Shown here in pieces: positions 60,739-63,712 of a DNA stretch of 64,000 bases (position 1 is the stretch's first letter; every line of letters begins with the position of its first letter). The stretch is from positions 22,567 through 86,566 of the forward strand of contig JAAYCL010000022.1 in the NCBI GenBank assembly GCA_012729785.1, read 5' to 3'. A model generated the notes under the pieces. It saw only the letters and a list, made by a program, of their open reading frames with translations, was not told the origin of the DNA and searched no databases. The DNA is from Chlamydiota bacterium. Its GTDB lineage: Bacteria > Auribacterota > Tritonobacteria > UBA1439. A program made the position numbers and the translations under genes.

Positions 60739-62541
60739 ATGGACTCGTACCTCGAGCGCATACGCAACTTCTCGATCGTCGCCCATATCGACCACGGCAA
60801 GTCCACGCTCGCGGACCGGCTCCTCCAGCTCACGCACACGATCGACGCGCGCCGATTCAGGGACCAGTTCCTCGACGCCATGGACCTCGAGCGCGAGCGG
60901 GGGATCACGATCAAGGCCCACGCGGTCAGGATGGAGTACACGGCGCGAGACGGCGTCACCTACACCCTCAACCTGATCGACACCCCCGGGCACGTGGATT
61001 TCAACTACGAGGTGTCGCGCAGTCTCTCCGCCTGCGAGGGGGCGCTCCTCGTCGTGGACGCCGCGCAGGGGGTCGAGGCGCAGACGGTCGCCAACTGCCA
61101 CCTCTGCGCGCAGAACAACCTGGCGATCATCCCCGTGATCAACAAGGTGGACCTCCCCAGCGCGGACGTCCGGGAGACGAAGCGGCAGATCGAGGACGTG
61201 CTGGCCCTCCCCGCCGACGACGCCGCCTGCGTGAGCGCCAAGACCGGGGCCGGGGTGGCGGAGCTTCTGGAGACGATCGTCGCCCGGATCCCGCCCCCGA
61301 GGAAACCCGAAAGCGAGGATCTGAAGGCGCTCATCTTCGACTCCCTCTTCGATACCTTCCGCGGGGTGATCATCCACGTGCGGCTGATGAGCGGCCGCGT
61401 CTCGCCCGGGATGAAGGTCCGCCTGATGTACACCGGGAAGGCGTTCGAGGTCCAGGAGGTGGGCTGCTTCGTGCCCGACGCGCGGCCGCGCGACCGGCTC
61501 CTGCCCGGAGAGGTCGGCTACATCATCGCCAACATCAAGGACTCCGGCGACGTCAGGATCGGGGACACGCTCACCGACGACCGGCGGCCCGCGCGCGCGC
61601 CGCTCCCCGGCTTCAAGCGCCTCCGGCCGATGGTCTTCAGCGGTTTCTATCCGGTCGCGACGACGGAGTACGAGAACCTGAAATCCGCCCTGAACCGCCT
61701 CCGTCTCAACGATCCCGCCTTCAGCTACGAACCGGAGAATTCGGTCGCGCTGGGGTTCGGCTTCCGCTGCGGTTTCCTCGGTCTTCTCCATATGGAGATC
61801 ATCCAGGAACGGCTCGAGCGGGAGTACGAGGTGGGGATCGTCGCGACGGTGCCGAGCGTCATCTACCAGATCAAAAAGACCGACGGGAGCCTGGTCGAGA
61901 TCGACAACCCGGTGCGGATGCCGCCGCCCGCGGAGATCGACGAGATCCGCGAGCCGATGATACGCGCCTATATCATCGTGCCGAACGAGATGATCGGCGC
62001 GATGATGAAGCTGGGCCAGGAGCGCCGCGGGGAGTGCGTCAGGACCGAGTCGATCGACGCGCACCGGGTCATCCTCACCTTCGAACTCCCGTTCAACGAG
62101 GTCGTCATCGATTTCTACGACCGCCTCAAGTCGGTGACCAGCGGCTACGGCTCGATGGACTACGAGCATGTCGGCTTCAGGGTCTCCGACATCGTGAAGC
62201 TCGATATCCTCATCAACTGCGAACCGGTGGACGCCTTCTCGTTCCTGGTCCACAAGGAGAAGGCGGAGCACCGGGGGCGCGCGCTCGCGGAGCGGCTCAA
62301 GGCGGTCATCCCGCAGCAGCTCTTCCGGGTCGCGATCCAGGCGGCGATCGGCGGCCGCATCATCGCCAGCGAGGTGGTCCGCCCCCTGAAGAAGGACGTC
62401 ACCGCCAAGTGCTACGGCGGCGACATCACCCGCAAGCGGAAGCTCTGGGAGAAGCAGAAGGAGGGGAAGAAGAAGATGAAGCAGATCGGGAAGATCAACA
62501 TCCCCCAGAAGGCGTTCATCGAGGTGCTGAAGGTCGACTGA
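60739..62541 (+). CDS. lepA: Elongation factor 4 (LepA)
   Basis: 600 aa ribosome-associated GTPase. G1 AHIDHGKSTLADRLL, G2/ERGITIKAHAVRM, G3 DTPGHVDFNYEVSRSLSACEGALLVVDAAQG, G4 NKVDLPSA and the LepA C-terminal domain (GYGSMDYEHVGFRVSDIVKLDILIN, KCYGGDITRKRKLWEKQKEGKKKMKQIGKINIPQKAFIEVLK). Normal length. It is next to lepB, the classic lepA-lepB pair, with a 190-bp gap between. Confidence 0.97.
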   Translation: MDSYLERIRNFSIVAHIDHGKSTLADRLLQLTHTIDARRFRDQFLDAMDLERERGITIKAHAVRMEYTARDGVTYTLNLIDTPGHVDFNYEVSRSLSACEGALLVVDAAQGVEAQTVANCHLCAQNNLAIIPVINKVDLPSADVRETKRQIEDVLALPADDAACVSAKTGAGVAELLETIVARIPPPRKPESEDLKALIFDSLFDTFRGVIIHVRLMSGRVSPGMKVRLMYTGKAFEVQEVGCFVPDARPRDRLLPGEVGYIIANIKDSGDVRIGDTLTDDRRPARAPLPGFKRLRPMVFSGFYPVATTEYENLKSALNRLRLNDPAFSYEPENSVALGFGFRCGFLGLLHMEIIQERLEREYEVGIVATVPSVIYQIKKTDGSLVEIDNPVRMPPPAEIDEIREPMIRAYIIVPNEMIGAMMKLGQERRGECVRTESIDAHRVILTFELPFNEVVIDFYDRLKSVTSGYGSMDYEHVGFRVSDIVKLDILINCEPVDAFSFLVHKEKAEHRGRALAERLKAVIPQQLFRVAIQAAIGGRIIASEVVRPLKKDVTAKCYGGDITRKRKLWEKQKEGKKKMKQIGKINIPQKAFIEVLKVD

Positions 62542-62731: not shown

Positions 62732-63712
62732 ATGGGGTTGATCGGCTTCTTCAGGGATCGCCGGACGGTGAAGGAGGCGCGCCTCGCGCGCAAGACGGTG
62801 CGCGCGCTCCTGAGAAAGCACCGCGGCAGGATCGGCGACCAGGCGGTCCTGCGGATCGAGCAGGACCTTCGCGCGCTCGACGGCGCCCTCGCGTGGCGGA
62901 ACGCCGCGGAGGTCGCGGCGGCGGCCGCGCGTCTCCACGAAAGCTTCGATCGCCATCTCGCCTTCGCGAAGAAGTCGATCGTCCGCGAGTACGCCGAGGC
63001 GTTCCTGTTCGCCCTCATCCTCGCCCTGTTCATCCGCACCTTCATCATCCAGCTCTTCAAGATCCCGACCGGCTCGATGGAACCGACCCTGCACGGGGCG
63101 CAGAACCACGGGGGATTCGGCGACCATATCGTGGTGAACAAGTTCATCTACGGCCCCCAGACGCTCGACTGGATCGGCGTCCCCTGGACGAATTTCGGCG
63201 TGGAGCTCCCCACCGCGCGTTTCAGCCGGCTGGCGCTGCGGTCCCCGCGGCGCGGGGACATCATCGTCTTCAGGTTCCCGTTCAACCGGCTCTGCCTGAA
63301 CGCACGGTGCCAGAAGGATTTCAATCTCGAGCGCGGGATGCCGCGCGTCTGCCCCCGGTGCGGCTCCCGCGCCGTGGAGTACCAGAACAAGGACTTCGTG
63401 AAGCGCCTCGTCGGCCTCCCGGGCGAGACGGTCGAGATACGAAACGGCCGCATCCTCATCGACGGCGAGGCGGTGACCTCCCCGAAGGAGATCGCCGGCA
63501 TCCGCTACGTCAACCCCCCGCCGGGCGCGGGCGCGGTCTACGGGCTGGCGGGACAGCGATTCAAGGTGCCGGAGGGGTCCTACTTCGTCCTCGGCGACAA
63601 CAGCGCCAACAGCAAGGACAGCCGCTTCTGGGGATTCGTGCCGTTCGAGACGGTGCGGGGGCTGGCGTTCTTCATCTACCTCCCCCCGTCCCGGATCGGG
63701 GTCGTGCGGTAG
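62732..63712 (+). CDS. lepB: Signal peptidase I with zinc-ribbon insertion
   Basis: 326 aa. Cleaves signal peptides at the outer face of the inner membrane. Residues 1-85 are a helical cytosolic extension; one membrane helix at 90-110; catalytic Ser115 (PTGSMEPTL) and Lys224 (DFVKRLVGLPGETVE); FVLGDNSANSKDSRFWGFVP is box E. Between box C (RGDIIVFRFP) and the catalytic Lys an insertion carries Cys188, Cys193, Cys207 and Cys210 (C-x4-C-x13-C-x2-C), a probable zinc ribbon not seen in ordinary SPase I. ATG 62732 follows GGAGGGGAGGGGAG; the upstream frame from 62633 is rejected. Confidence 0.93.
   Translation: MGLIGFFRDRRTVKEARLARKTVRALLRKHRGRIGDQAVLRIEQDLRALDGALAWRNAAEVAAAAARLHESFDRHLAFAKKSIVREYAEAFLFALILALFIRTFIIQLFKIPTGSMEPTLHGAQNHGGFGDHIVVNKFIYGPQTLDWIGVPWTNFGVELPTARFSRLALRSPRRGDIIVFRFPFNRLCLNARCQKDFNLERGMPRVCPRCGSRAVEYQNKDFVKRLVGLPGETVEIRNGRILIDGEAVTSPKEIAGIRYVNPPPGAGAVYGLAGQRFKVPEGSYFVLGDNSANSKDSRFWGFVPFETVRGLAFFIYLPPSRIGVVR

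Follow-up and report, generated by a model that had tools for sequence, protein, structure and literature searches.

A putative RPB12-type zinc ribbon beside the catalytic lysine of signal peptidase I in one Auribacterota family

Signal peptidase I, a drug target, is essential and conserved, and the surroundings of its active site are thought to be simple. In a model of substrate binding to the Escherichia coli enzyme, Asp142 lines subsites S3, S4 and S5, and Tyr143, Ile144 and Lys145 line S1 (PMC2259416). A literature search for signal peptidases with a zinc ribbon, a zinc finger or rubredoxin found nothing relevant. Here we analyse lepB in a 64,000-nucleotide stretch of DNA (the window; contig JAAYCL010000022.1 of assembly GCA_012729785.1, phylum Auribacterota). 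Our reading, which we hold to be probable, is that a structural zinc ribbon of the RPB12/Rpo12 type replaces the turn between boxes C and D of an otherwise ordinary signal peptidase I and flanks the entrance for the signal-peptide c-region.

Translation of lepB (62732-63709) yields a protein of 326 residues whose only cysteines are those at 188, 193, 207 and 210. It scores well over the curated cut-offs of both enzyme families (147.7 bits against 22.9 for PF10502; 134.8 bits against 47 for TIGR02227), and Ser115, Lys224, Gly288-Asn290, Ser294 and Asp296-Arg298 are invariant in an alignment of 20 sequences. Apart from the turn between boxes C and D, the protein reads as a conventional Ser-Lys signal peptidase I and is predicted to be active in cleavage. 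A profile search of the 2.6 Mb genome (GC content ~68.5% as sampled), which has Candidatus Auribacterota MAGs among its nearest named relatives, found lepB to be the sole PF10502 match; as the only signal peptidase I detected, it presumably carries out housekeeping cleavage. Upstream of lepB lie rpe and lepA, and the lepA-lepB order is conserved in the family members examined. The N-terminal domain, which would be cytoplasmic by analogy with the family topology, has no Pfam match and can be aligned with a Myxococcales enzyme (L006). Its fold match to the DnaK lid (Z 13.5) is of a kind common for helical bundles and possibly due to chance, and we claim no homology from it.

Table 1. Coordinates of lepB, its parts and its upstream neighbour within the window
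Feature	Position	Strand	Evidence
lepA (EF4), directly 5' of lepB	60739..62541	+	LepA_C E 7e-47
lepB, type I signal peptidase	62732..63712	+	PF10502 E 4e-43; TIGR02227 E 2.5e-39
N-terminal three-helix domain, residues 1-88	62732..62995	+	AlphaFold helices 2-33, 36-55, 58-75
Single membrane helix (predicted), ~residues 89-108	62996..63055	+	Hydrophobic sequence; model helix 83-104
Catalytic Ser115 nucleophile, box B IPTGSMEPT	63074..63076	+	Invariant in alignment
Box C strand RGDIIVF, residues 174-180	63251..63271	+	Alignment
Inserted zinc-ribbon module (putative), residues 185-220, Cys188/193/207/210	63284..63391	+	Alignment, profile, model
First knuckle C188-LNAR-C193 (C-x4-C; C-x2-C in all relatives)	63293..63310	+	Alignment
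Second knuckle C207-PR-C210 (CPRCG)	63350..63361	+	CPxCGS invariant in family
Catalytic Lys224, box D KDFVKRLVGLPGE	63401..63403	+	Invariant; aligned with E. coli box D
Box E GDNSANSKDSR, residues 288-298	63593..63625	+	Alignment

An earlier note on this DNA had described four cysteines, spaced C-x4-C-x13-C-x2-C, in the stretch that links the box C strand to the catalytic lysine, at a site where typical enzymes have few residues. Translation confirms the cysteines and their spacing, and places them in a 36-residue insert that lies between RGDIIVFRFP of the box C strand and D221-F222-V223-K224 and ends four residues before Lys224. Typical enzymes are indeed short here: the spacer between boxes C and D, counted under a single rule that starts where box C stops, is 41 residues in the window enzyme and 39-44 in the six enzymes of its family, compared to 9-20 in 35 other homologues, and it reaches 73 in a rubredoxin-bearing family of another phylum. 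Seven more homologue rows lie outside this rule, and their C-D loops are short by eye.

The earlier note would have given way had the cysteines not been conserved in close relatives, but all four have invariant counterparts throughout the family (6/6 genomes), together with CPxCGS, D-F and E-x-Q in the insert. Mean identity within the family is 56% in the insert and 82% and 70% in the flanking core, and the persistence of the cysteines in six of six despite the lower conservation of the insert as a whole suggests more than chance. The insert has a pN/pS of 0.46, which exceeds that of the core (0.21-0.30) and is below that of the N-terminal domain (0.56): apart from its cysteines and a few other residues it is only moderately constrained, which counts against the ribbon reading yet also fits a structural module in which the metal ligands matter most. 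Five of the six members have two C-x2-C knuckles joined by a loop, with the spacing C-x2-C-x13-C-x2-C or a middle loop longer by 5 residues, whereas in the window enzyme the first knuckle is C-x4-C and only the second C-x2-C. The C-x4-C form holds for the window enzyme but does not typify the module, and from the sequences it appears to be derived and unusual. A fifth cysteine stands directly after Lys-Arg (KRC) in five of the six family enzymes, where the window enzyme has leucine (63404-63409); this cysteine is also found in the ribbon-free families f13-f16.

That the insert is a zinc ribbon, as first proposed from its cysteines, is in keeping with profile and model comparisons. A profile of the family insert matches the Rpo12/RpoP zinc ribbon of RNA polymerase with the knuckles aligned (E 0.0016), and the relatives' inserts match HypA, Zn_ribbon_8 and RPAB4 in Pfam (E 8e-5 to 0.001). 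All of these Pfam matches fall below the curated cut-offs (at best 23.1 bits for HypA with 28.9 needed, and 21.8 for Zn_ribbon_8 with 34.4 needed), and hence we claim similarity to zinc ribbons and not formal membership. In the full AlphaFold model, which is metal-free, residues 181-220 are predicted at pLDDT 84-90. When the insert was modelled in isolation, the best Foldseek matches in the PDB were RPB12 chains (probability 0.97 but E 0.17), and comparison with RPB12 gave a VIA Z of 5.3 with 2.4 Å over about 40 of 43-45 residues, a modest score of the size to be expected from a domain as small as this (47 residues). Each line is modest, but together with the four invariant cysteines they support a predicted zinc ribbon, which would most likely hold one metal, Zn2+ being the best candidate, in a role that is most likely structural.

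The ribbon domain would be extracytoplasmic, by the topology of signal peptidases, and this favours a different use of the cysteines, as two structural disulfides of the kind common for cysteine pairs in exported proteins. The E. coli enzyme also has a periplasmic disulfide, which counts for this alternative. Against it, the DsbA and VKOR families were undetected in all 44 genomes of the phylum, and DsbB in all 10 genomes searched, with control genomes positive in each case. Among 40 predicted exported proteins, taken from 425 kb of the window's genome with a crude gene and signal-peptide caller, 15 have an even number of cysteines, 23 an odd number and 2 none, and hence show no even bias. These two observations indicate that cysteine side chains can remain in the reduced form and serve as metal ligands. 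The CPxCG knuckles and the similarity to RPB12 also fit metal better, and we consider disulfides quite unlikely and a bound metal in the insert the more likely. Auribacterota and related MAGs have been inferred to be strictly anaerobic (PMC12057145).

A survey of the taxonomic spread of the C-D ribbon, as the earlier note had proposed, traced its confirmed occurrences to a single family. The insert is present in all six genomes (G000 and G020-G024) of the window's Auribacterota family (f1), which span four genera. The named loci L002-L005 have it too, some of them probably coming from these same genomes. The sister family in that class (G019) does not have it, nor do the remaining Auribacterota signal peptidases that were read. 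Across 384 genomes, a profile of the insert and its flanks gave insert-spanning matches with confirmed cysteines only in f1, one match, in G144 (3-71), being unread; partial matches to the insert profile occurred in family f130, and two end-to-end matches (G175 and G312) were rejected, as their C-D loops have no cysteines. A DNA pattern for C-D ribbons matched 3 of the 384 genomes and missed five of the six family members, in which the residue after Lys-Arg is the cysteine that the pattern excluded; its negative is therefore weak and the profile search is the better survey. In our reading, the replacement of a short C-D turn by the ribbon would date to the last ancestor shared by the members of this Auribacterota family.

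Cysteine-bearing modules recur at other loops of signal peptidase and in another phylum. In Auribacterota families f5 and f6 it is the B-C loop that holds a ribbon, of the form CPxCG...C(P)xD (L058, L066, L067 and L068), and a check for the B-C pattern found only these four among the 384 genomes. In f2 and one f4 member, four cysteines lie between boxes D and E (L047, L071); two other f4 enzymes (L069, L048) keep the D-E insertion with few or none of its cysteines left. Outside Auribacterota, f130 (G293, G156 and G384; L122-L124), from a small phylum with seven genomes in the sample, bears a rubredoxin-like module at the same C-D site; the two inserts tested score 32.2 and 29.7 bits against a PF00301 cut-off of 23, over the second half of the model only, and the sister family f262 is without the module. 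In the tree, the C-D ribbon enzymes form one clade (support 98/97), separate from the supported groups with the C-D rubredoxin-like insert and with the B-C ribbon (99/100), and the D-E type groups less certainly. The differences in site and in domain type make separate gains the most economical interpretation, though a gain followed by losses is compatible with the tree. Two homologues sit at odds with the titles of their MAGs, which are probably wrong: the signal peptidase of L009 (titled Klebsiella pneumoniae) is Myxococcota-like, and that of L017 (titled Nitrosovibrio) Bdellovibrionales-like.

The loss of cysteines from a retained D-E insertion in two of three f4 members, and the faster evolution of the C-D insert relative to the core, would suit a surface-loop insertion that is tolerated with little functional effect, its cysteines being kept only for the folding of the loop. 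We judge this unlikely, since at the C-D site the four cysteines persist across six genomes and four genera, and ribbons occur in several separate clades.

The position of the putative ribbon suggests what it might do. D221-F222-V223-K224 aligns on E. coli D142-Y143-I144-K145, and by this homology the strand would form subsites S1 and S3-S5. A bound metal would fold the ~31 extra residues compactly and so spare this strand from disturbance. Since the ribbon stops immediately ahead of the strand, it most likely borders the way in for the signal-peptide c-region (P4-P5 and upstream), and there it would offer substrate, lipid or a partner a further surface of contact. The change in substrate access raised in the earlier note is thus plausible from position.

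The same note had also raised sensing of metal or redox state, for which we found nothing in support. As a sensor, the module would respond to zinc loss or cysteine oxidation by moving the box D strand and switching the peptidase off, and maturation of exported proteins would follow. Its end four residues before Lys224 would suit such a switch, as would the presence in another phylum of a rubredoxin-like module at this site, rubredoxins being redox proteins elsewhere, and the plant thylakoid signal peptidase Plsp1 is disulfide-dependent. But with a sole signal peptidase I detected, a switch would bring every cleavage of this kind to a halt; most zinc ribbons are static; and no oxidising Dsb/VKOR system was found. 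We therefore regard a sensor as very unlikely and retain the structural ribbon as the preferred reading. It is just as improbable a proposal, though a wider one, that metal modules (zinc ribbons and a rubredoxin-like domain) were grafted again and again onto the loops around the signal-peptidase active site in two or more phyla, and that the metal state at the C-D site gates cleavage; if true, such gating would couple the export of proteins to metal or redox supply.

The probable modules at the C-D site in two phyla, and at two other loops in one phylum, point to where the signal-peptidase fold tolerates or rewards additions. They suggest that substrate recognition or stability has a layer not recognised so far, in bacteria where the known disulfide-forming enzymes went undetected, and the recurrent ribbon pattern merits a proper survey.

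Among described systems, the window enzyme has in common with LepB (PF10502, TIGR02227, MEROPS S26) boxes B to E, the Ser115-Lys224 dyad and the lepA neighbour, and its fold matches that of E. coli signal peptidase (1b12/1t7d), in contrast to which it aligns with a 36-residue four-cysteine C-D module in place of a gap of a few residues. That module resembles RPB12/Rpo12 (RNA polymerase subunit P, PF03604) in the knuckle spacing of several relatives, in CPxCGS and, at modest scores, in predicted fold, but it sits in a protease loop, has a C-x4-C first knuckle and scores below the Pfam cut-off. The rubredoxin (PF00301)-like module of f130 shares the C-D site, but with a longer loop and in a separate clade, and is not the window's module. 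In the same enzyme but at other loops, the B-C ribbon of f5 and f6 has three cysteines and an aspartate, unlike the four cysteines of the window, and the D-E inserts of f2 and f4 are of the knuckle type with cysteines lost in some.
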